Positions 43,883 to 59,944 are shown, counted from the first letter of the stretch. The stretch: DNA of 64,000 bases from Bacteroidota bacterium (GCA_016194975.1 JACQAM010000003.1:124001-188000), one strand, 5' to 3'. A program made the numbers and translations. The notes: generated from the sequence alone by a model not told the origin.

Positions 43883-46800
43883 TTATTTTCCGCCGCCCTT
43901 TTTGATATCTTTTTTCGGATGATCGGCCTGCGTGTCTATACGCGTAATGGTTTCTGCGAGTTGCATATCGTCATACCAGGTTTGCGAGCGGATCTCCTGG
44001 CCGGCCGGAGAATAAAATTTCCACACGCCAAAATTATCACCGAGGATATAATACTCCGTGTGCTCGAGTTGCCCGTTCTCATAATAATATTTCTGAACGC
44101 CATCGAGCTGATCGCAGAAGTAGTTGAGTTCTTTGTGGAGGTTTCCATTGGAATAATAGTATTTCTGTGAACCCACATAATCGTAATGATCATAATTCTC
44201 GTCGTCAGAAATTTTTCCATTCGGATAATACGTGACCACGTGGCCGGTTAATTTTCCATTGTCATATTTTCCGCAGATGGAAGTATCGCCATTCTGGTAG
44301 TAGCCGGTGAAATCGCCACTGCCATCTTTCAGTTTGATCATCGGGGCTAATAAATTTCCGTCCTTATCAGGATAAGAATAGCCGAGTACATTTCCATCTT
44401 TGTAATACCTCGCATATTGCAGCGAACCGTTGTCGGAATAATATTCCAGTTCACCATTCACATTTCCCATTTCCCAGGTTCCCTGTTTGAAGATCTGCCC
44501 GTTCTCGTGATAATATTTCTGCATGCCATTGAGATCGCCGTCGTAATAATTTTCTTCCCATCGTTTGTTTCCATTCTCCCACCATGCATTGCTACTGCCA
44601 TTGCGATTGTCGTAATCCATATTTGTTTCGAGGAAAGGTTTTCCGGTGACCGGGTAAAATTCCTTGCGAACGCCGAACTGAACACCATTGATATAATTTG
44701 AAAGGATCAGGTCCTGCCCGTCAAAAGCGTACTTGTGTAATTCTCCTTCGCGGTAACCGTCCTTATAATTCGTGACCACAAAATCTTTTCCGCCCGGGTA
44801 AGGGAAATCGAATTTGCCTGTACCATTATCAGATTCCCATTTATAAATCACAGCGCCGGTAGAATCGAAACGCGTGCGTGACCAGAGAAAAGTTTCCTTG
44901 ATAAAATCTTCTTCATTCTTTCTTCCTTTTTTATCGAAGAAGATCTGCAGTCCGTGTTCACTTCCATTGATGTAATATTTATGCGAATTGAATCCTCCGC
45001 GCTCATTGTAATAATACCAGTCGCCGGCTTTTTCTCCGCCGGAATAATTTCCTTCCGATTCGAGTTTTCCATTGGAGTACCAGGATTTGTAATACCCATC
45101 CTGCGAATCGTAGAAATAATCGGATTCTTCTTTTTCAGTTCCATTCGGGAAATATTCTTTACGTGTGCCGCTCAGAAAACCATAACGATAATGTTCTTTC
45201 GCCCTGAGCCATCCGCCATTGGCAGAATAAATTTTCCAGTCGCCATCGCGGTGCCCGTCCACGTAATCTCCTTCTCCCGACACAGCACCATTCGGAAAAT
45301 ATTCTTTCACCGTGGTGGTTTCCTTCATCTCGTATTCTGCAATGGTTCCTCCAGATTTGTCGAAGTAAGTGACCGTTTTCAGTGTGCCGGAAGAATACAG
45401 ATCGGTCTCATAGAGGACGCCGTCGGTGTCAAATTGATTTACTTTCCCATTGTATTTTCCGCTCTTGTAAGTTGCGTCGGCAGAAACTTTTCCATTGCGG
45501 TAATATTCTTTCCATACACCTTCTCGGTTGCCGGCTTCCTTGAACATTCCCTCGCGCTGAATGTTCCCATTCTCAAAATAAATTTTCCATTCGTCAATGG
45601 CATCATCATTCTTGTAATCGCCTTCGCTTTTTGTTTTTCCATTGGAGAAATACTCCGTAGCGGTTCCGTTTCGCTTGCCCATGAGGTAATTTGTTTTCGA
45701 AGAAATTTTTCCGTCGAGCGTATAGAGATCGAATTCGCCAGTGAGATTTCCCGCTTTATAGTGCATAGAAGCGCGCACCGCTCCATTGCTGAAATAAGTG
45801 AACGCGTCTCCTTCGAAAACACCTTTGTTCATGCTTGCTTTTTCTTTTATTCCACCGTGGATCGCGTAAGTCGTGTATTCTCCATCGACCATATCCTTCG
45901 TGTACGTGCACTTGAATGCGAGCAATCCATTTTCATGGTACTGTTCGCTGGGCCCTTCCTTCAAGCCATTCACATACGTTGCTTTTTCCATGAGTTGCCC
46001 GTTTCGATAATACGTATTCCATTCTCCTTCTCTATTGCCCTGCGCGTTGTAACTTCCTTTTGAAAAAACAGCTCCGCATTTTTCCCAGAAGAAAATCCAT
46101 TCGCCTACCGGATTATCTTTCGCATCGGAATGGCCGACTCCTCCAATGGAATAATCATCATTGAACGTATAATCGGGATTCGTTTTATCGCTGAGCAGGT
46201 CGACCACAGGATGTTTCATATTCTGCTTGAGATATTTTACCGCCCACTTGGAGAATTCAGTGATCTTCTTTTTGTTCTTCTTGAATGATTTCATCACCGT
46301 CGTATTGTTCGATGCAACAGGAGCAAGCGATAAAGTAATGAACGGCGTAAAATAATTCTGCGCCTGCAGGGCATTAAAGAACGGAACATAATTTTCCATC
46401 CACCAGTTGCCGGTTCCGTCTTTATATTTCAATTGTTCAAAAAGCATTTGCATCTGCTTCACTAATTTCAAATTGATCTTCGTTTTATTCTTGTACGATT
46501 TATCGTACGCTTTTCCGGAAGCGATCATGTCATTGATGTCGCTGAAACAATCGTCGCCTGCTTCACTGATGCTGAGTTTCAGATCCGGGTCGGGCTGATA
46601 ATCTCCCGTGGTCATATCTTCGAGTGAAGAAACCACTTTCTGCGAACGTTCCGATTGGGCATCGAGCAACAGGTAAAATTCATAGGAAAGAATTGCAGGG
46701 ATCATTCGCCCCTGTTCAGAACATGTTTTTCCCAACATGAAATGACTGTCGGCGTGAAAAGGATTCAACTTCACCGCATCCTGAAAACATTCCTGTGCTT

Positions 46801-47251
46801 CTTTATACTTATTCATTTTCACATAAGCCATTCCCTTGGTGTAATGAAAAAGATAATAGTAGGGATAAAGTTTAATTGCACGATCGAGTACATGAAAAGC
46901 AGAATCATATTTACCCATTTCCTTCAGCGAATTTCCGAGGAGATTATAAAAATCGGGATCATATTCCGTATGAAGATCGAGTCCGTATTTACAGGTGTAT
47001 GCGCACAAACTATCTTCCTTATCGGCGCTGTAAGCGAGTGCAAGATCACGCGAGACCTCGGCATAATTCGTATCGTTCGCGCCGACTTTCTTATAAACTT
47101 CTTCTGCTTTGGAATAACTTCCGAGCGCATAATCGAGCGCACCTTCGAAGAGGATCGTACCGGAATTGACAAGTTCTACATCCATTTGCGCATGGATCTT
47201 TCCGGTGAAAAGCAATAAAACAGCAGGAAGCAGGAGATGAATTTTTTTCAT
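43883..47251 (-). CDS. Giant secreted TPR and MORN-repeat protein
   Basis: A 1122-residue protein with a signal peptide (MKKIHLLLPAVLLLFTGKIHAQ), N-terminal tetratricopeptide repeats (about residues 30-205, for example YPYYYLFHYTKGMAYVKMNKYKEAQECF), and about 29-30 MORN_2/YwqK-like repeats of 23-24 residues (consensus Y..NG....G.Y..G...G.W..YY.NG) from about residue 395 to the end. This repeat class is annotated as YwqK-family antitoxin-like but is also common in Bacteroidota exported proteins with no toxin. No toxin is nearby here. The tail is Lys-rich. A TATTTTTG box lies upstream at 47277-47284. Confidence 0.82.
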   Translation of the reverse strand: MKKIHLLLPAVLLLFTGKIHAQMDVELVNSGTILFEGALDYALGSYSKAEEVYKKVGANDTNYAEVSRDLALAYSADKEDSLCAYTCKYGLDLHTEYDPDFYNLLGNSLKEMGKYDSAFHVLDRAIKLYPYYYLFHYTKGMAYVKMNKYKEAQECFQDAVKLNPFHADSHFMLGKTCSEQGRMIPAILSYEFYLLLDAQSERSQKVVSSLEDMTTGDYQPDPDLKLSISEAGDDCFSDINDMIASGKAYDKSYKNKTKINLKLVKQMQMLFEQLKYKDGTGNWWMENYVPFFNALQAQNYFTPFITLSLAPVASNNTTVMKSFKKNKKKITEFSKWAVKYLKQNMKHPVVDLLSDKTNPDYTFNDDYSIGGVGHSDAKDNPVGEWIFFWEKCGAVFSKGSYNAQGNREGEWNTYYRNGQLMEKATYVNGLKEGPSEQYHENGLLAFKCTYTKDMVDGEYTTYAIHGGIKEKASMNKGVFEGDAFTYFSNGAVRASMHYKAGNLTGEFDLYTLDGKISSKTNYLMGKRNGTATEYFSNGKTKSEGDYKNDDAIDEWKIYFENGNIQREGMFKEAGNREGVWKEYYRNGKVSADATYKSGKYNGKVNQFDTDGVLYETDLYSSGTLKTVTYFDKSGGTIAEYEMKETTTVKEYFPNGAVSGEGDYVDGHRDGDWKIYSANGGWLRAKEHYRYGFLSGTRKEYFPNGTEKEESDYFYDSQDGYYKSWYSNGKLESEGNYSGGEKAGDWYYYNERGGFNSHKYYINGSEHGLQIFFDKKGRKNEEDFIKETFLWSRTRFDSTGAVIYKWESDNGTGKFDFPYPGGKDFVVTNYKDGYREGELHKYAFDGQDLILSNYINGVQFGVRKEFYPVTGKPFLETNMDYDNRNGSSNAWWENGNKRWEENYYDGDLNGMQKYYHENGQIFKQGTWEMGNVNGELEYYSDNGSLQYARYYKDGNVLGYSYPDKDGNLLAPMIKLKDGSGDFTGYYQNGDTSICGKYDNGKLTGHVVTYYPNGKISDDENYDHYDYVGSQKYYYSNGNLHKELNYFCDQLDGVQKYYYENGQLEHTEYYILGDNFGVWKFYSPAGQEIRSQTWYDDMQLAETITRIDTQADHPKKDIKKGGGK

Positions 47252-48492: not shown

Positions 48493-50391
48493 TCAAATCC
48501 TCTCCGCACTTCGTTTGATAAAATTCGTCAGCTCTTCTCCCTTTAGTAATCCTTGCGCGAGCAAAGCAAGATCGGTTGCCTGTTTTACAATTTCCTTTTT
48601 TTTCACTTCATCTTTTTCATTGAGAATTTTTGAAGCGAGTGGATGATTGGCATTCACCACAAGATTATGCATGTCGGGAAAGTTGCCGAACATATTCCTG
48701 CTCCCGCCCGAGAGCGCGCTCATGTCCTTCATGCGGCGCATGAATTCAGGTCGCGTAACGAGCATGGGTGCGTCTGTGTCCAGAAGACTTTCGAATGTGA
48801 CGTTGAATTTTTCTTTTGGCATCACCGCTTCGATCACGTTTTTTATTTCTTCCTGTTCTTTGTCGGAAAGTTTCGAAGGAAGATCGTCCGATTTTTTAAT
48901 GAGCCGGTCCACCGTGTCACTGTCCACGCGCACGAAAGAAACTTTTTCCATTTTCGATTCGACGTGATTGATGAAATGCGCGTCGATCATGCTGTCGAGA
49001 ATGAGCACATCGTATCCTCTTGATCCCGCCGCGTCAATAAAACTGTGTTGCTCATCGGCATTCGATGCATAGAGGAAAACCTGTTTGCCGTCTTTATCGG
49101 TTTGCGTGGCAGAAATTTTTTCACGGTATTCCTCCAGCGTAAAACATTTTCCTTCTGTATTTTTCAGCAATGCGAATTTCAATGCTTTCTCGTAGAATTT
49201 TTCATCGCTGATCATTCCGTATTGAACGAAAATGCGGATGTCTTCCCATTTCGTTTCAAAATCCGTTCTGTCTTTTTTGAAAAGTTCTTCCAGTTTATCC
49301 GCTACTTTTTTTGTGATGTGTGAAGAAATTTTCTTCACGTTCGAATCGCTTTGAAGATAAGAGCGGGAAACGTTGAGCGGAATATCGGGCGAATCGATGA
49401 CGCCGCGGAGCAGCGTAAGAAAATCGGGAACGATCTCGCCCACATTATCCGTTACAAAAACCTGATTGCTGTAGAGTTGAATTTTTTCTTTCTGAACTTC
49501 GAAACTCTTTTTGATTTTTGGAAAATAAAGTACGCCTGTGAGATGAAAAGGATAATCTACATTGAGATGGATCCAGAAAAGCGGTTCTTCAAAATTCATC
49601 GGGTACAATTCGCGATAGAATTTTTTATAATCATCGTCGGTAAGTTCAGCAGGTTTTTTAGTCCACGCCGGATTCGGATTATTGATCACGGCAGGAACCG
49701 TTTCTTTTTCCGCTGGTTTTAGTTCTTTCCCGTCCTTATCCTTTTCAGCAGGAACAATTTCAATTTCATGCGTTCCGAAACGGATTTCCACCGGAAGAAA
49801 CCGGCAATACTTTGTGAGAATTTCTTCAATGCGGTTCTCTTCGAGAAATTCCGCTGAATCATCAGCAATATGCAGGATCACATCGGTTCCTCTCCCGGAT
49901 CTTTCCGAAGGTTCTATCGTGTAATTAGGGCTTCCATCGCAACTCCATTTCACGGCAGAAGAATCGTCTTTATAACTTTTTGTAACGAGTTCGACTTTCG
50001 CCGCCACCATGAATGCCGAATAAAATCCGAGGCCGAAGTGCCCGATGATTCCCTGCACCGCATCGGTTTTGTCTTTGTATTTCTGCACAAATTCTTCGGC
50101 GCCGGAAAATGCAACCTGTGTGATGTATTTTTCCACCTCTTCTTCTGTCATCCCGATTCCGTTATCCGAAACCGTGATCGTTTTATTTTCTTTATCAATG
50201 TTAATGGTAACTGCAAGCGATCCTAATTCGCCGGCGAATTCCCCGAGTGAATTCAGCGCTTTCAGTTTTTTCGAAGCATCAACGGCATTCGAAACCAATT
50301 CTCTCATAAAAATTTCGTGGTCGGAGTAGAGGAATTTCTTGATGATCGGAAAAATATTTTCCGTTTGTACGTTGATGGTTCCTGTTGACAT
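48493..50391 (-). CDS. htpG: Molecular chaperone HtpG (Hsp90)
   Basis: A 632-residue Hsp90. The GHKL ATPase motifs are clear: RELVSNAVDASKK, TVSDNGIGMT, GHFGLGFYSAFMVA. The middle domain has NVSRSYLQ, and the C-terminal dimerisation domain is present. Length matches bacterial HtpG. The gene is isolated on the minus strand, divergent from the Hyf-like operon, with a 271-bp interval that shows no further convincing gene. Confidence 0.97.
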   Translation of the reverse strand: MSTGTINVQTENIFPIIKKFLYSDHEIFMRELVSNAVDASKKLKALNSLGEFAGELGSLAVTINIDKENKTITVSDNGIGMTEEEVEKYITQVAFSGAEEFVQKYKDKTDAVQGIIGHFGLGFYSAFMVAAKVELVTKSYKDDSSAVKWSCDGSPNYTIEPSERSGRGTDVILHIADDSAEFLEENRIEEILTKYCRFLPVEIRFGTHEIEIVPAEKDKDGKELKPAEKETVPAVINNPNPAWTKKPAELTDDDYKKFYRELYPMNFEEPLFWIHLNVDYPFHLTGVLYFPKIKKSFEVQKEKIQLYSNQVFVTDNVGEIVPDFLTLLRGVIDSPDIPLNVSRSYLQSDSNVKKISSHITKKVADKLEELFKKDRTDFETKWEDIRIFVQYGMISDEKFYEKALKFALLKNTEGKCFTLEEYREKISATQTDKDGKQVFLYASNADEQHSFIDAAGSRGYDVLILDSMIDAHFINHVESKMEKVSFVRVDSDTVDRLIKKSDDLPSKLSDKEQEEIKNVIEAVMPKEKFNVTFESLLDTDAPMLVTRPEFMRRMKDMSALSGGSRNMFGNFPDMHNLVVNANHPLASKILNEKDEVKKKEIVKQATDLALLAQGLLKGEELTNFIKRSAERI

Positions 50392-50662: not shown

Positions 50663-52657
50663 GTGGAAAACTTTCAATTTATTTCCTGGTCATTGATCTT
50701 TTGCGGAGCGGGAATCGTGCTGATCCCGTTCCTTCCCGCAGCTTATCGCTCTGTTGCAGGTTTTGTGCTGGTACTTCTGAATGCAGTGGTAACCTCTGTT
50801 CCTGCCATACATGCATTGGCCGGTAAACCTTTGGAAATTCACCTTTATGGAATTTCTTTTTTCAGTGATGTTCCGCTTAGGATCGACGGGCTTTCCGCCT
50901 GGTTCATGCTCATTATTAATTTCACTTGCGTGAATGGTGCATTGTACGGAATCGGTTACATGAAACCTTATAAAGATCAAAAAGCAAATATTTCTTTACA
51001 CTGGATATTATTTGTGTTGTTCCAGGTTTCCATGCTATGGGTTTGCATGCTGCAGCACGGACTTGCTTTTTTAATTGCGTGGGAGATCATGTCGCTGACT
51101 TCCTTGCTGCTGATCCTGTTTGAACACGAGCGTTATCAAACTATTAAAGCAGGTGTAAATTATTTTGTGCAGATGCATCTTGCAGTGGTGTTTCTTTCCA
51201 TCGCCTTCATCTGGATTTATTTTTCAGAAGGATCTTTTGATTTTAATTCCGTCGCCTCATTTTTTCATCATCACCGTGCAGGATGGTTGTGTGTACTTTT
51301 TTTTCTCGGGTTCGGCATCAAAGCAGGATTTGTTCCCTTACACACCTGGCTGCCGCACGCGCACCCTGCAGCGCCCTCGCACATATCGGGCGTGATGTCG
51401 GGAGTCATTGTCAAGATGGGCATTTATGGTTTGCTTCGAATGAGCGCCTATCTATGTTCCGATTTGCTGAGAGCCGGAGAAATTATCCTCGTGTTATCTG
51501 TACTCACTGCTTTTTACGGGATTCTCAATGCCGCTGTACATTCCGATTTCAAACGCATGCTTGCTTTCTGCACAATAGAAAATATCGGGATCATTGGTAC
51601 GGGCATCGGACTTGGATTGATCGGGAAAGGAAGCGGGAATAATTTTATCATGTATATCGGATTTGCCGGCGCTTTGCTTCATACGCTGAATCATTCACTT
51701 TATAAATCGCTGCTGTTTTTCGCGGCAGGAAATATTTATCGTCAAACGAACACGAGAAACATGGAGCAACTGGGCGGTCTGATAAAAAAAATGCCTTCCA
51801 CTGCTTTTTTCTTTCTCGTGGGAGCGCTCGCCATCTGCGGGCTTCCACCGTTGAATGGATTTATTTCTGAATTCCTTATTTATTCCGGGTTGATCGAGGG
51901 AATCAAATCCGATAATATTCAATTCAGTTCGCTCATGATCCTTAGCATATCGGGACTTGCGATCGTTGGAGGAATTTCCCTGCTCACCTTTACAAAAACA
52001 TTCGGAACAATATTTCTCGGTTCGCCACGTACGGAATTACAACATGAGCCGGAAGAAGTTTCTTTTATCATGCGTTTGCCGCTCTATCTTATTTTTTCGG
52101 TCATGCTTTTCATCGGAATTTTTCCGGGTATTGTTCTGCACTCGGTAACTTCAATCGTGAGCGTATTTGATCCTGCTTTTTCCCCGGGGAATTTTGTTTC
52201 GCTTTCCCTGCAAACGATGACCATGGTCGGAAAAGTTTCGTTGATCATGGCAGGAATTGTATTCCTGATTTTCCTGGCGAGAAAAAATATTACTGCACGC
52301 AGAATATCCTCTTATTATAACACGTGGGGTTGCGGATATGTTGCACAAAACAGGAGAATGCAATACACGGGCAAATCATTTTCCAAATCGCTGGCAAAAC
52401 TTCTGAGTTTCATTACTTCGGAAAAAAAGAAATATGCCGAAATGGATGCACAGACTGTTTTCCCCGGAAAAAGAAAATTCACTTCGCACTACATCGAATT
52501 TTTTGAGGCCAATATTATTCACAAAGCAAACAACCGCATCATCGGTTTCTTCAACTATTTCGCGTTCATCCATAATGGAAAAATTCAGACGTACGTGCTT
52601 TACGGATTTTTCTTTATTGTGGCGCTGATCGCAGCAACATTCTTTAACTGGTTATAA
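50663..52657 (+). CDS. Hyf-like operon: HyfB-type proton-translocating subunit (copy 1)
   Basis: A 664-residue polytopic protein related to HyfB/HycC/NuoL. The conserved pump residues are present: the TM5-type Glu in AWEIMSLTSLLLILFEHE, the TM7-type Lys in GFGIKAGFVPLHTWLPHAHP, and the TM8-type Lys in LNHSLYKSLLFF. It starts the seven-gene operon at GTG 50663 and ends exactly next to copy 2 (0 nt gap). It should translocate protons or sodium. No Na+/H+ antiporter label is given because the redox arm is unusual. Confidence 0.9.
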   Translation: MENFQFISWSLIFCGAGIVLIPFLPAAYRSVAGFVLVLLNAVVTSVPAIHALAGKPLEIHLYGISFFSDVPLRIDGLSAWFMLIINFTCVNGALYGIGYMKPYKDQKANISLHWILFVLFQVSMLWVCMLQHGLAFLIAWEIMSLTSLLLILFEHERYQTIKAGVNYFVQMHLAVVFLSIAFIWIYFSEGSFDFNSVASFFHHHRAGWLCVLFFLGFGIKAGFVPLHTWLPHAHPAAPSHISGVMSGVIVKMGIYGLLRMSAYLCSDLLRAGEIILVLSVLTAFYGILNAAVHSDFKRMLAFCTIENIGIIGTGIGLGLIGKGSGNNFIMYIGFAGALLHTLNHSLYKSLLFFAAGNIYRQTNTRNMEQLGGLIKKMPSTAFFFLVGALAICGLPPLNGFISEFLIYSGLIEGIKSDNIQFSSLMILSISGLAIVGGISLLTFTKTFGTIFLGSPRTELQHEPEEVSFIMRLPLYLIFSVMLFIGIFPGIVLHSVTSIVSVFDPAFSPGNFVSLSLQTMTMVGKVSLIMAGIVFLIFLARKNITARRISSYYNTWGCGYVAQNRRMQYTGKSFSKSLAKLLSFITSEKKKYAEMDAQTVFPGKRKFTSHYIEFFEANIIHKANNRIIGFFNYFAFIHNGKIQTYVLYGFFFIVALIAATFFNWL

Positions 52658-54679
52658 ATGAGTTTCAGTAACTGGATATTCCTGGTGACCGTTCTTTTTC
52701 TCTTCCTCACGATCTTCGTGAACGAAGGATGGAAAGGGAGCATGGCTGCGCTTGGTGTATTGGTAAATGCAGGATTGAGTTCATTTATCGCTATTAAAGT
52801 TTTTTGCGGACAACCCTGCCAGGAAAATATTTATGGAGGATATATTTTCGGGAATATCCCCGTGAGAGTGGATGCGCTTGCCGCGTGGTTTATTTTACTG
52901 ACGAATTTCACTTTGCTTACCGGCATCCTGTACGGAAGGCGTTATATGAAACAGTATAAAGGACAGCGGGCCAATCTTTCTTTGCATTTCGTGAGCTATA
53001 TAGTGATCCATTTTTCTATGATCGGGATTTTCTGCGTTCAGAATTTTCTTGCTTTTCTCTGCGTGTGGGAAATGATGGCGATCTGCTCTTTCCTTCTGGT
53101 AATTTTTGAACACCACAAAATTGAAACGATAAAAGCGGGGATCAACTATCTCGTGCAGGCGCACATAGGAATTGTTTTCCTGATGATCGGTTTTATCTGG
53201 ATTCATTTTCATACCGGCTCTTATGATTTCAACGCGATCACACAGTACAGTTCTGCAGTGACACACGCTGTAAGTTTTGTTTTATTTTCCTGCTTTTTCA
53301 TTGGATTCGGGATCAAAGCCGGTTTTGTTCCGTTTCACACCTGGCTTCCGTATGCGCACCCTGCAGCACCGGCACACATTTCAGGAATAATGTCGGGTGT
53401 AATTATCAAACTCGGGATTTTCGGGATCCTGCGAATGCTGTTGCTGATAAAAGGAAATTATCTCGTGATGGGTTACACGGTGCTCATCATTTCAGTAATT
53501 TCAGGAGTGTATGGGGTGATGCTTGCGATTGTGCAGCACAACGTAAAAAAATTGCTGGCGTATCACAGCATCGAGAACATCGGCATTATCGGAATAGGAA
53601 TCGGGTTGGGTGCAATAGGAATTGGAATGCATAATTCTTATCTGGCATTTGCAGGTTTTGCGGGCGCGCTCCTGCACACACTGAATCATTCTCTTTTCAA
53701 ATCACTTTTGTTTTACTGCGCAGGAACGGTTTACCAGGCCACGCATACAATGGATATTGAACACCTCGGTGGATTGATCAGGAAAATGCCGCATACGGCT
53801 TTTCTTTTCTTAGTTGCTGCATTGGCCATCTGCGGCCTTCCCCCATTCAACGGATTTATTTCTGAATTTCTTATTTACTCAGGTTTATTCCACGCCATTC
53901 ATCTCGACAAACTTTCGCTGGCGATGAATATGATCGTTTCCATTTGCGGGCTCGTACTCATCGGCGGACTGGCGCTGCTCTGTTTCACAAAAGCATTCGG
54001 CGTTATTTTTCTCGGAACTGAACGCCATCCGCATCAAGCGCAGGTTCAAGAAGCTGAGTTTTCAAAACTTTTTCCGAAATATCTTGTTGCAGTTCTTATT
54101 ATTCTCATCGGGATAGTTCCACAATTTTTCGTTGGCGTTATTGAAAAACCACTTGCACTTTTTACAAGCGGGCTACCTGCTGATGCTTCCGTTTCTGCAT
54201 TTATTTCCACGCTGCAGAAGATCAGCATTTCGGTTGCAGGATTGATCCTTCTCTCTGCGCTCACCTTCTTAGTGCGAAAAAAAATAACAGCTTCGAAAAA
54301 TATTTCAAGCGCTCCTACGTGGGGTTGCGGATATGTTGCCCCGACACCGAAACTCCAGTACACCGCTAATTCTTTTGTTCGTTCCTACCGTAAGCTGGTA
54401 AAACCAGTTCTGATGATGAATAAAAAGGAAACTGAAATGAAGGGCATATTTCCGGAACCGGTTCACACCGTTACACATCCTTATGACCGGATGGAGGCTT
54501 TACTGATAGATACTCCGATCAGGTACCTGAAAGGTTTTATGAGAAGATTTCGTTTTTTACAGAATGGAAATCCTCAATTCTATATCCTTTATGGAGTAAT
54601 CTTCATTTTTATTGCAATTGTAATTCCATTGCTGCTGAATGTGGCTCATTACATAATTCAACTATTTAAACAGATTTAA
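52658..54679 (+). CDS. Hyf-like operon: HyfB-type proton-translocating subunit (copy 2)
   Basis: A 673-residue paralogue of copy 1 with the same motifs (VWEMMAICSFLLVIFEHHK, GFGIKAGFVPFHTWLPYAHP, LNHSLFKSLLFYC). The two share an unusual HyfB-type C-terminal extension (WGCGYVAQNRRMQYTGKSF and WGCGYVAPTPKLQYTANSF). The pair arose by tandem duplication and both keep the pump Lys and Glu, so both are predicted to be active. Adjacent to copy 1 and 2 nt before HyfC. Confidence 0.9.
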   Translation: MSFSNWIFLVTVLFLFLTIFVNEGWKGSMAALGVLVNAGLSSFIAIKVFCGQPCQENIYGGYIFGNIPVRVDALAAWFILLTNFTLLTGILYGRRYMKQYKGQRANLSLHFVSYIVIHFSMIGIFCVQNFLAFLCVWEMMAICSFLLVIFEHHKIETIKAGINYLVQAHIGIVFLMIGFIWIHFHTGSYDFNAITQYSSAVTHAVSFVLFSCFFIGFGIKAGFVPFHTWLPYAHPAAPAHISGIMSGVIIKLGIFGILRMLLLIKGNYLVMGYTVLIISVISGVYGVMLAIVQHNVKKLLAYHSIENIGIIGIGIGLGAIGIGMHNSYLAFAGFAGALLHTLNHSLFKSLLFYCAGTVYQATHTMDIEHLGGLIRKMPHTAFLFLVAALAICGLPPFNGFISEFLIYSGLFHAIHLDKLSLAMNMIVSICGLVLIGGLALLCFTKAFGVIFLGTERHPHQAQVQEAEFSKLFPKYLVAVLIILIGIVPQFFVGVIEKPLALFTSGLPADASVSAFISTLQKISISVAGLILLSALTFLVRKKITASKNISSAPTWGCGYVAPTPKLQYTANSFVRSYRKLVKPVLMMNKKETEMKGIFPEPVHTVTHPYDRMEALLIDTPIRYLKGFMRRFRFLQNGNPQFYILYGVIFIFIAIVIPLLLNVAHYIIQLFKQI

Positions 54680-54681
54680 CC

Positions 54682-55596
54682 ATGCCTGTCACGAGTTTGC
54701 TTCTGATCATCATTACCAGTTTGTTTTTTACGGGAATCATCATCCGCACAAAAAGTATTTTGTCGGGGCGCAAAGGTCCGGGAATTTTTCAGCCGCTGAA
54801 AGATATCTGGCGCCTGTTCAGGAAAGGCGCCGTGTACAGCAAGACAACCAGTTTTGTTTTTCAGGTTGCACCTTCTGTTTATTTTTCATCGGTGCTGGTA
54901 GCAGTGCTGTTCATTCCTTTCGGCGACCAGCGTGGATTGATTTCTTTCAACGGAGATTTTGTTTTTTTCGCTTACACACTGGCACTCGGAAAATTTTTCA
55001 TGATCATTTCTTCGCTCGACACCGGCAGCAGTTTTGAAGGAATGGGAGCGAGCCGTGAGGCGCTTTATTCCTTGCTGGTGGAACCCGCATTTTTTATTCT
55101 CATGGGATCATTTGCCTTGCTGACCGGGCACACTTCCTTTTTTGAAATTTTCAGCACTCTCCATTTTGGCTCCTACATTTCTTATGCTGTGGGAACGCTG
55201 GCTGCTTTTGTCATTGTCATCATCGCGATGGTAGAGAACAGCCGAATGCCGGTAGATGATCCGAAAACACACCTGGAATTAACGATGATCCACGAAGTGA
55301 TGATCCTTGATAACAGCGGATTCGATCTCGGACTGATTTTTTATACCACCAACCTGAAATTCGCCATGTACGGCGCCATCATCGCCAATTTTTTTCTTAC
55401 ACCCGGTCATGAATTGTATTATTCCATTCCCATTTTCATTGCCACGCAGGCGCTGTTCGCTATCGGGGTAGGGATCATCGAATCGTTCATGGCGCGTTTC
55501 AGGATGAACCACAACCCACAGTTCATTTTCACACTCACTTCCATTTCACTGCTCATTTTCCTGGGTGTATTACTGATGCTCGGGAAAATTATTTAA
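54682..55596 (+). CDS. Hyf-like operon: HyfC/NuoH-type membrane subunit
   Basis: A 304-residue polytopic protein of the respiratory complex I subunit 1 (NuoH/HyfC/HycD) family. It has GRKGPGIFQPLKDIWRLFRKG near the N-terminus, GASREALYSLLVEPAF, and ENSRMPVDDPKTHLELTMIHEVM, the conserved acidic loops near the quinone/electron-transfer cavity in complex I. It links the membrane arm to the peripheral arm. Intact. Confidence 0.92.
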   Translation: MPVTSLLLIIITSLFFTGIIIRTKSILSGRKGPGIFQPLKDIWRLFRKGAVYSKTTSFVFQVAPSVYFSSVLVAVLFIPFGDQRGLISFNGDFVFFAYTLALGKFFMIISSLDTGSSFEGMGASREALYSLLVEPAFFILMGSFALLTGHTSFFEIFSTLHFGSYISYAVGTLAAFVIVIIAMVENSRMPVDDPKTHLELTMIHEVMILDNSGFDLGLIFYTTNLKFAMYGAIIANFFLTPGHELYYSIPIFIATQALFAIGVGIIESFMARFRMNHNPQFIFTLTSISLLIFLGVLLMLGKII

Positions 55597-55608
55597 TACT
55601 TAAATGCA

Positions 55609-56238
55609 ATGACCAACATCCTGCTGATTACTTTCCTGATCACGCTCATCTATATCGGTGTGGCGAAGCGGCTCTATACGTACATTTCCATTCTTGCGAT
55701 ACAGGGGGTGTTGCTTTTCGGCGTGGCTTTTATTGAGCTGATAGAAATAAATACCATTAACCTTGTTTTTGTCCTGATGGAAACTATTGTATTTAAAGCT
55801 ATAGTTATTCCATTGTTCCTGAATTATATCATCAACAAGAACAATATCACCCGGGAGGCAGAACCTTTTCTTCCCAATTTTATTTCACTCGTCATCATCA
55901 CCATCATCATCCTCGGTTCATTCCTGCTGTCGAATACAATTCATGATCCTCATCTCCGGAAAATATTTTTCGTAGTGGCTTTGTCCGCGCTTTTTACCGG
56001 GCTTTTCATCATCACAACCAGAAGAAAGATCATCACACACGTCATGGGATTCCTGGTCATCGAGAATGGTGTATTTGTTCTTTCTCTTGCAGTAGGAAAT
56101 GAAATGCCAATGCTGGTGAATACCGGAATCCTGCTCGACATCTTTGTGGGGGTGCTCCTGCTCGGAATTTTTGTAAATAAGATCGGCGATGTTCTGAAAG
56201 AACAGGATGTAGAGCAACTCAGAAATTTAAAAGACTAA
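55609..56238 (+). CDS. Hyf-like operon: HyfE-type membrane subunit
   Basis: A 209-residue polytopic protein that is NuoK-like in part and typical of hydrogenase-4 HyfE (family length about 215). It has ELIEINTINLVFVLMETIVFKAIVIPLFLNY and VIENGVFVLSLAVGNEMPMLVNTGILLDI, with the membrane Glu pair seen in NuoK (ENGVF). It lies 12 nt after HyfC. Confidence 0.88.
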   Translation: MTNILLITFLITLIYIGVAKRLYTYISILAIQGVLLFGVAFIELIEINTINLVFVLMETIVFKAIVIPLFLNYIINKNNITREAEPFLPNFISLVIITIIILGSFLLSNTIHDPHLRKIFFVVALSALFTGLFIITTRRKIITHVMGFLVIENGVFVLSLAVGNEMPMLVNTGILLDIFVGVLLLGIFVNKIGDVLKEQDVEQLRNLKD

Positions 56239-56250
56239 TGAACTGAAATT

Positions 56251-57678
56251 ATGATTGGAATTTATCTTATTGGAGCATTTGTCATCGGCGTGTTATTATT
56301 CTACAACCGGAATAAAACCGTGAACTACCTGCTATCCGGAATTTTTTTATTGTTGCAATGGATCTTTACTATTTACGAATACAGGCACCTGAACATTGAA
56401 GATTCGGGATATTTTATGCCGGATTCGCTGGCCGTTATTTTCCTCGTCGTATTGAGTATTGTGTGCATTCCCGCTTTTTATCACAGTTATATTTATTTCA
56501 AACATAACCGCGACATTCCGCGTGAGCGCGGAATTTATCATGCGGCAACAGTGTTGCTCATTGCGTCGCTGAGTGCGGCTTATCTTGCCAGCCACATTGG
56601 TGTTACCTGGGTTTTTGTTGAGCTCACCACGCTGAGTGCTTCCGCTCTTATTTATCACAGGAGAAATGTGCGCACGCTGGAAGGCACCTGGAAATATATT
56701 TTTGTCTGCTCGATCAGCATTACACTTGTTTTCATCGGTATTCTTTTTCTGACGCTTGCTTTACAGGAAGCAGGATTGAAAAATCTTTCTTACCAGTCGC
56801 TGATCGAAAAAGCCCCGGTTCTAAATGTCTTCTGGTTAAAACTCGCTTTCCTTTTCATCTTCACCGGTTACACAGCGAAAGCCGGATTGGTTCCGATGTA
56901 CACAGCGGGCATTGATGCAAAAGACAAAGCGCCTTCGCCTGCAGGAGCGCTGATAGGAAGTGTACTCATGACTGTAGGATTTTTCGGCATCTTTCGTTTT
57001 TACGAAATCATCAGTCACACTTCCATCTACAGTTGGTCGAATAAAATTATTCTCATCTCCGGAGTTCTTTCTGTTTTTGTTGCGACGGTGTACATGCTCC
57101 GTGTAAAAAACATCAAACGCATGCTCGCGTACTCGGGCGTGTATCACATGGGATTGGTGGTGATCGGCCTGGCTGCAGGGGGAATAGGCCGTTATGCTGC
57201 GATCCTTCATCTTGTTCTTCACTCTTTCACCAAGCCGACTTTATTTTTTCAAACCGGTCAGATCTACCGGATTTATAAAAGCAAAAGCATTTACGACATT
57301 GGAAATTATTTCAAATACAATCTCACCGGTGCGCTGGTGTTGTTGTTTGCTTTTTTCATTGTCACCGCAATGCCTCCATCAGGAATGTTCGTAAGTGAAT
57401 TCCTCGTCTTCCGTTCTTTGTTCGAATCAGGAAACTGGTGGATACTCGCTTTTATCCTGCTTCTTCTTACACTGATCATCTGGTCGTTCGGAAAAAATAT
57501 TTTAAAAATACTTTTTATTCCTCCGGTTGGTTTTAATGACGAGAAAGTGGAAAAAATTCCTGCCGTTGAATCGTACAGCCATTTTATTTTACTCGCACTC
57601 GTGATCTATCTCGGGCTCCATCCCCCGGCGGAATTTGTACAACTTATCAATAGTGCAATCACCCATTTACCACATTGA
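56251..57678 (+). CDS. Hyf-like operon: HyfF/NuoN-type membrane subunit
   Basis: A 475-residue polytopic pump-type subunit. The Glu of TM5 (WVFVELTTLSASALIYH), the Lys of TM7 (FTGYTAKAGLVPMYTAG) and the Lys of TM8 (LHSFTKPTLFF) are present. HyfF-type position in the operon supports the call; NuoN cannot be excluded by eye. It overlaps or abuts HyfG. Confidence 0.87.
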   Translation: MIGIYLIGAFVIGVLLFYNRNKTVNYLLSGIFLLLQWIFTIYEYRHLNIEDSGYFMPDSLAVIFLVVLSIVCIPAFYHSYIYFKHNRDIPRERGIYHAATVLLIASLSAAYLASHIGVTWVFVELTTLSASALIYHRRNVRTLEGTWKYIFVCSISITLVFIGILFLTLALQEAGLKNLSYQSLIEKAPVLNVFWLKLAFLFIFTGYTAKAGLVPMYTAGIDAKDKAPSPAGALIGSVLMTVGFFGIFRFYEIISHTSIYSWSNKIILISGVLSVFVATVYMLRVKNIKRMLAYSGVYHMGLVVIGLAAGGIGRYAAILHLVLHSFTKPTLFFQTGQIYRIYKSKSIYDIGNYFKYNLTGALVLLFAFFIVTAMPPSGMFVSEFLVFRSLFESGNWWILAFILLLLTLIIWSFGKNILKILFIPPVGFNDEKVEKIPAVESYSHFILLALVIYLGLHPPAEFVQLINSAITHLPH

Positions 57679-57680
57679 AC

Positions 57681-59180
57681 ATGACAGAAGATACAAGCAT
57701 TAAAAACAATCAAACCATTGCTCTCGGTGAGATACCTGTGCTCGATTACGCACAATTTTCAGCACACAATATTTCTCTCCTTCAGCAGGAATACAATCAT
57801 TGTGTAAATTATTTTGCTTTCCCCGAAGGAAATAAACTCAAACTGATTTCCTGCATCGCGAATGACATGGAACATACCATTGCTGTTTTTTCCACCGTTG
57901 TACTTTCCGATTCCACATTGCCCTCACTTACAAAACATCATCTTGCTTTTCACTCATTCGAGAGAGAGATCCACGAAAACTATGGCATCAATTACAGCGA
58001 TCATCCCTGGCTGAAACCGCTGCGTTTTCCATTTGACCGCGCTGATAAAAATTCCCGGATTGATAATTATCCGTTCTATTCGATAGACAGCGAAGAACTG
58101 CATGAAGTAGGAGTTGGCCCAATTCACGCCGGAATAATTGAACCCGGGCATTTTCGTTTCACCTGCAATGGAGAACAGATCCTCCACCTGGAAATTCAAC
58201 TCGGATACCAGCATCGTGGAATTGAAAAATTATTTCTGAAAAAGAAAAAACTCTTGCAACGAACGACCCTTGCAGAAAATATTGCCGGCGATACCGTGGC
58301 TGGACACACTACTGCATTTGTAAATCTCCGGGAAAGTTTGTGCGGCTACCGTGCAGAAGAAGATCTTCAATTCGTGCGCACGCTGGCGCTGGAACTGGAA
58401 CGCATTGCTATCCACACCGGCGACCTGAGCGCGATTTGCACAGACATCGCTTACCAGCTTGGCAGTTCAGTTTTCGGAAGATTGCGAACGCCGGTTATTA
58501 ATTTTTTACAGTTGTGGTGCGGGAACCGGTTATCGAAAGGACTGATACGTGCGGGAAAAAATAATTTCCCATTCACAAAAGAAAACGGGGAACAACTGAA
58601 AAATCTTTTTGAAGAATTTGAGCCCGATTTCAATGAAATGTATCGTGAATTCAAAACATTGCCGAGTGTCTTATCGCGATTGGAAAAGACAGGAATGGTA
58701 AGTAATGAGCAGGCCCTTGCTACAGGAACAGTTGGCATGTCGGCAAGAATGTCGGGGATTGTACGTGATATACGCAGCACGCATCCGCACGACCTGTATC
58801 CGCAATTGAATCACGATCCCGCAATAAAAAATCACGGCGATGTTTACTCGCGCACACAGATACGCAGGGAAGAAATATTACAATCGATCGGTTACATAAA
58901 AGAAATGCTGAAAAATATTCCTACAGAAAATAAAAGCCGGCAGGAATTAAAATCACCTTCGCCATCTTCTTTCTCGCTTTCACTTGTCGAAGGATGGAGA
59001 GGTGAAATTTGCCATTGCGCCATCACCGATGAAAAAGGAGAATTACTGCATTATAAAATAAAAGATCCATCGCAGCATAACTGGCTTGCCTTGGCTTTAG
59101 CCGTTCGCAATAATGAGATCTCTGATTTTCCCATTTGCAATAAAAGTTTTGACCTGAGTTATTGCGGCCATGATCTTTAA
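57681..59180 (+). CDS. Hyf-like operon: HyfG-type large subunit lacking [NiFe] ligands
   Basis: A 499-residue fusion of a NuoC-like N-terminal domain and a NuoD/hydrogenase-large-subunit-like domain (GPIHAGIIEPGHFRF, LGYQHRGIEKLF). In [NiFe] hydrogenases the first ligand pair is RICGIC; here the aligned sequence is NIAGDT, so both Cys are Ala and Thr. The C-terminal DPCxxC is replaced by FDLSYCGHDL, also without the pair. The protein is therefore not a hydrogenase. ATG 57681 is used; a TTG at 57675 overlaps the HyfF stop. Confidence 0.9.
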   Translation: MTEDTSIKNNQTIALGEIPVLDYAQFSAHNISLLQQEYNHCVNYFAFPEGNKLKLISCIANDMEHTIAVFSTVVLSDSTLPSLTKHHLAFHSFEREIHENYGINYSDHPWLKPLRFPFDRADKNSRIDNYPFYSIDSEELHEVGVGPIHAGIIEPGHFRFTCNGEQILHLEIQLGYQHRGIEKLFLKKKKLLQRTTLAENIAGDTVAGHTTAFVNLRESLCGYRAEEDLQFVRTLALELERIAIHTGDLSAICTDIAYQLGSSVFGRLRTPVINFLQLWCGNRLSKGLIRAGKNNFPFTKENGEQLKNLFEEFEPDFNEMYREFKTLPSVLSRLEKTGMVSNEQALATGTVGMSARMSGIVRDIRSTHPHDLYPQLNHDPAIKNHGDVYSRTQIRREEILQSIGYIKEMLKNIPTENKSRQELKSPSPSSFSLSLVEGWRGEICHCAITDEKGELLHYKIKDPSQHNWLALALAVRNNEISDFPICNKSFDLSYCGHDL

Positions 59181-59191
59181 AAAAGAAAAAA

Positions 59192-59944
59192 ATGTTTGGA
59201 AATTTTAAAATACTGATCCACCAGGGAAAGCAATACATTCCCGATGTAACAAAAGCAGAAGTGCCCGGAATTTTCAGGGGAAGGCCACAAATCTCCAATG
59301 AAAAAACCGATACTACAGCTCTCGCAGAAATTTGTCCTACTGAAGCTATTTCACTTAATCCTGTGAGCATTGATCTCGGAAAATGTACTTTCTGCGGAGA
59401 ATGTGCGATCGCTTTCCCCGACAAAATAAAATTCACGAAAGATTACAAACTATCCACGAATGATCGTGAACGATTAATTGTAAAAGAAGGAGACGATAAA
59501 TTAATTACGCTAAATCGGGAAATTGTGCGGAAAGAGATCTCAGAATATTTCAGTGGTTCATTGAAACTGCGGCAGGTTTCTGCAGGAGGGGATAATAGCT
59601 GTGAACTGGAATTGAATGCATGCGGCAATGTGAATTTTGATATGGGAAGATTCGGAATTGAATTTGTTGCTTCACCGCGTCATGCCGATGGTATTGTGAT
59701 CACCGGGCCCATCACTGAAAATATGGCGGCTCCGTTACAGAATTGTTATGACGCAATTCCTGAACCTAAAATCATAATTCTTGCGGGAACAGATGCTATC
59801 AGTGGCGGAATTTTCATTGACAGTCCTGCGTTGAACAGGAGTTTCCTCGATAACTATAAAATCGATCTGTATGTGCCTGGAAATCCTGTTCATCCTCTTA
59901 CTTTCATCAATGGAGTTTTGGAATTGATAAAAAGAAGAAAGTGA
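59192..59944 (+). CDS. Hyf-like operon: ferredoxin/NuoB-type small subunit fusion with reduced clusters
   Basis: A 250-residue fusion of a ferredoxin-like N-terminal domain and a NuoB/HyfI-like C-terminal domain (FGIEFVASPRHADGIVITGPITENM, EPKIIILAGTDAISGGIF, YVPGNPVHP). The ferredoxin part keeps C48, C65, C68, C71, which together fit one [4Fe-4S] cluster. Of the four N2-type ligands, aligned positions are D134, C137, D201 and N231, so three of four Cys are lost. Extra cysteines C144 and C185 exist. It ends the operon 7 bp before the convergent regulator gene. Confidence 0.88.
   Translation: MFGNFKILIHQGKQYIPDVTKAEVPGIFRGRPQISNEKTDTTALAEICPTEAISLNPVSIDLGKCTFCGECAIAFPDKIKFTKDYKLSTNDRERLIVKEGDDKLITLNREIVRKEISEYFSGSLKLRQVSAGGDNSCELELNACGNVNFDMGRFGIEFVASPRHADGIVITGPITENMAAPLQNCYDAIPEPKIIILAGTDAISGGIFIDSPALNRSFLDNYKIDLYVPGNPVHPLTFINGVLELIKRRK

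Follow-up and report, generated by a model that had tools for sequence, protein, structure and literature searches.

Positions 50663–59944 of the window, the 64,000 nucleotide stretch of a Bacteroidota bacterium genome analysed here (GCA_016194975.1, JACQAM010000003.1:124001-188000), almost certainly encode an Ehr complex without the N2 cluster ligands, as judged from the predicted proteins, and such a complex probably transports ions without relying on the electron path normally used. Seven co-directional open reading frames on the + strand, 0–12 nt apart, are arranged in the order HyfB-HyfB-HyfC-HyfE-HyfF-HyfG-HyfI. Two HyfB-like antiporter subunits (50663–52657 and 52658–54679) are followed by HyfC/NuoH-like (54682–55596) and HyfE/NuoK-like (55609–56238) subunits, a HyfF-like antiporter subunit (56251–57678), a HyfG/NuoCD-like large subunit without [NiFe] ligands (57675–59180, or from an alternative ATG at 57681), and a HyfI/NuoB-like small subunit fused to a ferredoxin domain (59192–59944). 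The seven proteins give Pfam/NCBIfam matches to Proton_antipo_M (three proteins), NADHdh, Oxidored_q2/HyfE (weak), Complex1_49kDa with 30kDa, and Oxidored_q6 with Fer4. These coordinates and domain families confirm the tight operon described in a sequence-only reading of the same DNA. Its suggestion that the complex is Ehr-like is also upheld: a complex-I/group-4-like membrane arm and NuoCD-/NuoB-like soluble subunits lie in one operon, the [NiFe] cysteines are absent, and the tree position agrees. None of the genes at the window locus is disrupted. An HtpG/HSP90 gene (48493–50391, − strand) is divergent from the operon, and a similar gene lies within the analysed stretches of L045 and L099; further to the left, 43883–47251 (− strand) encodes a 1122-aa protein with a TPR-like N-terminus and many MORN-like repeats identified by eye.

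When 84,980 species genomes were scanned with the small subunit, 212 relatives were confirmed, and the best 80 of these were analysed. In these 80 the small subunit is 71–83% identical to that of the window, and nearly all are Bacteroidota MAGs or isolates, together with one Marinimicrobia MAG and one Spirochaetia MAG. The gene order is unchanged in the loci of relatives whose stretch extends far enough. In 49 loci the contig takes in the operon's 5′ end; 37 of these carry two HyfB copies and 12 carry one. Between close pairs dN/dS is ~0.04–0.16 for nearly every subunit and pair, with even smaller values in some cases for HyfC and HyfE, indicating that both soluble subunits are under strong purifying selection. 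The operon is present in three of 59 sampled relatives (counting the window's own genome), and this patchy distribution together with the high identity suggests horizontal spread.

The membrane arm appears to be a normal ion-translocating arm of the complex-I/hydrogenase-4 type, as read from its conserved residues, and the window complex would be expected to translocate ions. The antiporter-type Glu and Lys residues are invariant in the first HyfB subunit (E141, K220, K251 and K348; 44 sequences), the second (E138, K220, K251 and K348; 56 sequences) and HyfF (64 sequences), bearing out the earlier claim that the pump residues are retained. Most charged residues of HyfC and HyfE are likewise invariant (62–63 sequences); HyfE has no sequence match among solved structures.

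The large subunit has no [NiFe] site. In alignment with HycE, CGIC corresponds to AGDT (ENIAGDT vs DRVCGIC), so that AGDT (residues 204–207; 58284–58295, + strand) occupies the hydrogenase CGxC position, and DPCYxC corresponds to DLSYCG, with SYCG (residues 495–498; 59157–59168, + strand) at the C-terminal CxxC position. The four [NiFe]-binding cysteines of group 4 [NiFe] hydrogenases are not found, and the loss of the site that had been deduced from these two motifs is confirmed. The predicted fold matches 7z0s_E (Z 36.0, 2.8 Å over 438 residues), with pLDDT below 50 at residues 114–125, 127–178 and 482–501 of the single-chain model. Alignment to 2fug_4 places Gly205 at the quinone-site Tyr of complex I, which we take to be Y87 in T. 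thermophilus Nqo4 numbering. A signature consisting of EPGHFRF, xGD[ST], DPS and DFPxxNKS is common to most of the sampled Ehr, with or without N2, and a fluoride-linked branch (see below) departs from it. The [NiFe] cysteines are missing from every large subunit examined, deeper relatives included, and a 100/99 branch in the large-subunit tree parts all [NiFe]-less members from HycE and MbhL; by these alignments the absence of the [NiFe] site characterises the Ehr family as a whole. The loss is already documented in published reports, which give the function of Ehr as unknown (PMC6349859, PMC10284858, PMC12342949, PMC6728331).

In the small subunit, alignment to MbhJ and HycG shows that the N2 motifs CxGC, GxC and PGCP correspond to D134-N-S-C137 (59591–59602, + strand), GTD201 (D201 at 59792–59794, + strand) and PGN231P (N231 at 59882–59884, + strand), respectively, so that the protein reads GDNSC, GTDA and GNP where MbhJ, HycG and NuoB have the N2 cysteines. 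The Asp, Cys, Asp and Asn recognised earlier at the four ligand positions are therefore D134, C137, D201 and N231. The same substitutions are shared by homologues, which had been proposed as a check: among the window and the best 80 of the 212 relatives, D134 and D201 are each present in 81 of 81, N231 in 80 of 81, and C137 in 78 of 81, the exceptions at C137 being N or V. With four deeper members added the counts are 85/85 for D134 and D201 and 84/85 for N231, and the D.x.D.N pattern is present in L148, L149, L119 and L150 with C, N, C or S at the second position. By comparison, positions 134, 201 and 231 are all Cys in each of 16 N2-intact relatives. The predicted fold matches 7z0t_G (Z 11.8, 2.7 Å over 130 residues), and the N2 loop (residues 134–148) has pLDDT below 50 in the single-chain model. 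The invariance of D134, D201 and N231 with a variable C137 (C, N, S or V) argues against a rebuilt four-ligand cluster. We also considered whether cysteines elsewhere fill the site, and reject this. In the small subunit only C48, C65, C68 and C71 are invariant, with C137, C144 and C185 all varying; the conserved C164 and C446 of the large subunit do not form such a set with the small-subunit cysteines, and C446 is V in the N2-less L150.

The fused ferredoxin domain keeps, by its cysteine pattern, exactly one [4Fe-4S] site. Motif 1 retains only its last Cys (C48; 59333–59335, + strand) and motif 2 its first three (C65, C68 and C71 in CTFCGEC; 59384–59404, + strand), and all four are invariant in the same 81 sequences. 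By assignment from NuoI we take these to be the N6b ligands, N6b being the direct neighbour of N2, with the N6a set lost. The complex is thus not fully redox-dead. The sequence-only reading, in which nearly all redox ligands were lost, was right for [NiFe] and N2 and overlooked this full N6b set; its further suggestion of a complete lack of redox coupling is not established, because the catalytic arm retains that site.

Deeper relatives were sought in the phylum and class, and the search of Deinococcota and Actinomycetota covered plasmids. All four N2 cysteines are kept in L120, L121–L133, L151 and Variovorax L152. The history of N2 was read from the large-subunit tree, since that subunit holds no N2 ligands. 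In this tree the N2-less window clade is monophyletic (98/95) with the N2-intact L120 as its sister; the same branch is weaker (87/75) in a second tree containing fewer close and more distant members, and in the short small-subunit tree the window adjoins L120 with weak support, such that clade monophyly rests on the large subunit. The window lineage thus lost N2 once, its ancestor having carried the cluster. In these trees the window clade lies among N2-intact relatives, and N2 loss is not family-wide.

There are two further N2-less Ehr, both encoded on plasmids. One is in the culturable thermophile Allomeiothermus silvanus DSM 9946 (pMESIL01; L154:3975-11150, NC_014213.1), where the N2 positions are T/D/E/S and the small subunit has four cysteines in total, corresponding to the N6b set. 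The other is in Mycobacterium branderi (pJCM12687; L159:2600-10654, NZ_AP022607.1), with N/D/D/A at the N2 positions, the N6b set kept, and fluoride riboswitches and an enolase gene nearby. We tested whether all N2-less forms go back to one loss, and AU tests reject this (p ~1e-195 for the large subunit; 4e-6 for the small subunit with the ligand columns removed), and on these phylogenies N2 has been lost at least three times. Mycobacterium groups with Burkholderia on long branches, and the grouping is independently backed by gene order (HyfC first, HyfB last) and by the fluoride riboswitch context. In each N2-less lineage (D/C/D/N, T/D/E/S and N/D/D/A) acidic residues occupy two, and no more, of the four positions that once held N2 ligands, always including position 201, and each lineage retains N6b.

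Most of the proteobacterial Ehr examined show the mirror state, with the N2 cysteines present and the ferredoxin domain absent; those of Rhizobium, Bradyrhizobium, Azospirillum, Burkholderia (L157) and Methylocalor are of this kind. Their small subunits are 171–179 aa, and their operons contain no annotated ferredoxin gene, which could lie elsewhere in the genome; Cupriavidus L175 is also in this state, judging by sequence. Among other proteobacterial Ehr, both the ferredoxin domain and N2 are kept in Variovorax L152, Burkholderia L160 and L162, and Caballeronia L173. The sampled Ehr therefore fall into four cluster states: N6a+N6b+N2, N6b+N2, N2 alone and N6b alone. None of these Fe-S centres is present throughout the sample, and the large-subunit signature mostly is. 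The novelty is confined to the loss of N2, as Ehr and its [NiFe] loss were already known; in the literature covered, whose scope excluded most subscription journals and the Ehr-defining paper, no report of a conserved, repeated N2 loss was found.

Among the 80 window-clade loci (the best of 212) there is no universal neighbour gene, a Crp-like regulator being present in 12 and others scattered, and neither a dehydrogenase nor a donor gene accompanies the operon with any consistency. Among N2-intact Bacteroidota loci, 13 have a gene for a PtsN-like EIIA adjoining HyfB, and five of them have SulP beside EIIA; L135 has a SulP-STAS-EIIA fusion between its G and I genes (L135:6939-9137), and SulP is immediately 3′ of the I gene in L120 and in the N2-less L150. 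Altogether SulP, often with PtsN-like EIIA, is in or beside the Ehr operons of L135, L126, L129, L130, L131, L133, L120 and L150. The gene for a protein with two TM segments, which weakly resembles the C-terminus of SulP and has no Pfam match, overlaps the end of the I gene at L021:10750-11286, L025:2424-2966 and L041:10750-11310, and an arsenic-resistance-like cluster (arsenite permease, ArsM, and ArsC-/ArsR-like genes, identified by eye) is 3′ of the small-subunit gene in the N2-less operons of L074, L077, L082, L086 and L094.

A divergent Ehr branch is associated with fluoride riboswitches, which lie 5′ of the operons in Burkholderia L160 and L162 and near that of M. branderi, and the genes around these fluoride-linked Ehr include pyrophosphatase, enolase, CrcB and ClC. 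On the Burkholderia plasmids (L160:2971-10704 and L162:2858-10584) the genes called 'formate hydrogenlyase/NuoB' are [NiFe]-less, N2-intact Ehr, and there is no formate dehydrogenase gene beside them. Fluoride-riboswitch genes have been tied to pH and Na+ homeostasis, and those named in a review as most common include Na+/H+ antiporters and 'formate hydrogen lyase' (PMC11139923); our observations suggest that at least some of the latter are Ehr. The presence of SulP, PtsN-like EIIA and fluoride riboswitches beside some relatives suggests a role in ion or pH homeostasis. At the window locus all three associations are absent, and an Rfam search of the window and the Bacteroidota relatives found no riboswitch. 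The host genome has two separate complex I gene sets, on contigs C4 (33997–44838) and C22 (16082–26947), with NuoF found on C22 only; neither SulP nor a [NiFe] hydrogenase (no PF00374 match) was detected in it.

The reading we favour, tentatively and at somewhat short of an even chance, is that the complex is an ion- or pH-homeostasis machine driven by binding at the subunit interface rather than by N2-mediated electron transfer. An ion, proton or small substrate would bind where the large and small subunits meet, and the resulting charge movements would drive the antiporter-like subunits or gate them. Binding of a proton or cation by the two carboxylates in the old N2 cavity could supply the change in charge, and the single N6b cluster might be a redox gate, a sensor or a structural element. 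Electron transfer through N2 is most likely not what drives the complex, because the large-subunit signature is kept whether N2 is there or not and because some family members do without N2 and others without the ferredoxin domain. We count in favour of this mechanism the replacement of N2 ligands by invariant acids and Asn, the purifying selection, the repeated loss of N2, the ion-transport neighbours in relatives, and a host with two complex I gene sets and no detected [NiFe] hydrogenase. Counted against it are the retention of N6b without exception in the clade, which would suit a genuine redox role, and the fact that the SulP, EIIA and fluoride clues come from relatives and not from the window locus or its host. 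A broader form, in which the Fe-S wire of Ehr is dispensable and a non-redox event at the old N2 site powers a complete complex-I-type machine, with a carboxylate pair replacing the cluster independently in three lineages, is somewhat less likely still. It also counts against a non-redox drive that we know of no demonstration of a complex-I-type arm being driven in this way, except for the NuoL/HyfB-like DabB of the DAB carbon pumps.

The main rival to such a non-redox mechanism is a shortened redox wire, in which a soluble ferredoxin-like donor would reduce N6b and electrons would pass directly into the emptied N2 site, where a substrate or some unknown cofactor is bound, with this reduction driving pumping. 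The invariant N6b ligands, kept also in both independent N2-less lineages, speak for this, as does the recurrent loss of N6a, as though electrons enter at N6b. In complex I, N6b is ~10 Å edge to edge from N2, a spacing that allows direct transfer into the pocket. However, the three N2-less lineages have no common set of cofactor residues except two acids, the 80 loci offer no consistently linked donor, and the ferredoxin domain is missing from most proteobacterial Ehr examined; we consider the shortened wire somewhat unlikely. Still less probable is that a different metal or cluster (mononuclear, [3Fe-4S]-like, or Mg2+/Ca2+) at D134, C137, D201 and N231 takes over the role of N2. Asp ligates Fe-S clusters in some ferredoxins, and two acids recur in every independent loss, but some members that are otherwise D/D/N have N, S or V in place of C137, and the non-acidic positions differ among lineages (N, S, A), so that no common ligand set is conserved. 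It is also improbable, and more so, that the complex is purely a cation/proton antiporter, similar to Mrp, with a structural or regulatory soluble arm: the antiporter residues are invariant and relatives have ion-transport neighbours, but a mere scaffold is expected to drift, and the small subunit (71–83% identity) equals or exceeds most membrane subunits in conservation and has invariant motifs. Finally, N2-intact relatives such as L120 do exist, which the sequence-only reading had said would point to decay, but a decayed or misassembled copy has a negligible likelihood and decay of a single copy is refuted, given identical substitutions in 80+ loci, the low dN/dS, a monophyletic clade and undisrupted window genes.

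The main question still to be answered about complex I is how redox chemistry at N2 and the quinone site moves ions up to 200 Å away. A conserved relative that retains its entire membrane arm and the greater part of its soluble arm, with a loss of N2 that has occurred at least three times and is mirrored by ferredoxin-domain loss in relatives, provides a natural deletion series for coupling. A non-redox drive, if true, would part the charge-stroke of complex-I coupling from electron transfer, and ion or pH homeostasis is a testable lead for the Ehr of Nitrospira, mycobacteria, rhizobia and Bacteroidota.

Among known systems, the window complex is closest in composition to Ehr as described for Nitrospira (EhrL) and M. 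tuberculosis (Rv0081-0087), with a HyfB/C/E/F arm, NuoCD-/NuoB-like subunits and no [NiFe] cysteines; these reports describe the [NiFe] loss, whereas the window clade also lacks the N2 ligands (PMC10284858, PMC6728331, PMC12342949). The group 4 [NiFe] hydrogenases (E. coli FHL/Hyd-4 and P. furiosus MBH) are the best structural and sequence matches of the window subunits, but the window complex has neither their [NiFe] ligands nor the proximal (N2-equivalent) ligands, and only one ferredoxin-type cluster. With respiratory complex I it shares antiporter-like subunits and NuoH-, NuoK-, NuoCD- and NuoB-like folds; unlike complex I it has no N2 ligands, Gly205 at the quinone-site Tyr, and no NADH module, NuoEFG being absent from 50663–59944. 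The Mrp antiporter (MrpA-G) has no NuoCD/NuoB arm, in contrast to the soluble arm here, and no MrpE, MrpF or MrpG is among the seven proteins. The DAB (DabA/DabB) inorganic-carbon pumps also have a NuoL/HyfB-like subunit, proposed to be coupled to a non-redox reaction; unlike them, the window operon encodes no DUF2309/DabA domain in its seven proteins and its complex keeps a full complex-I-type soluble arm.
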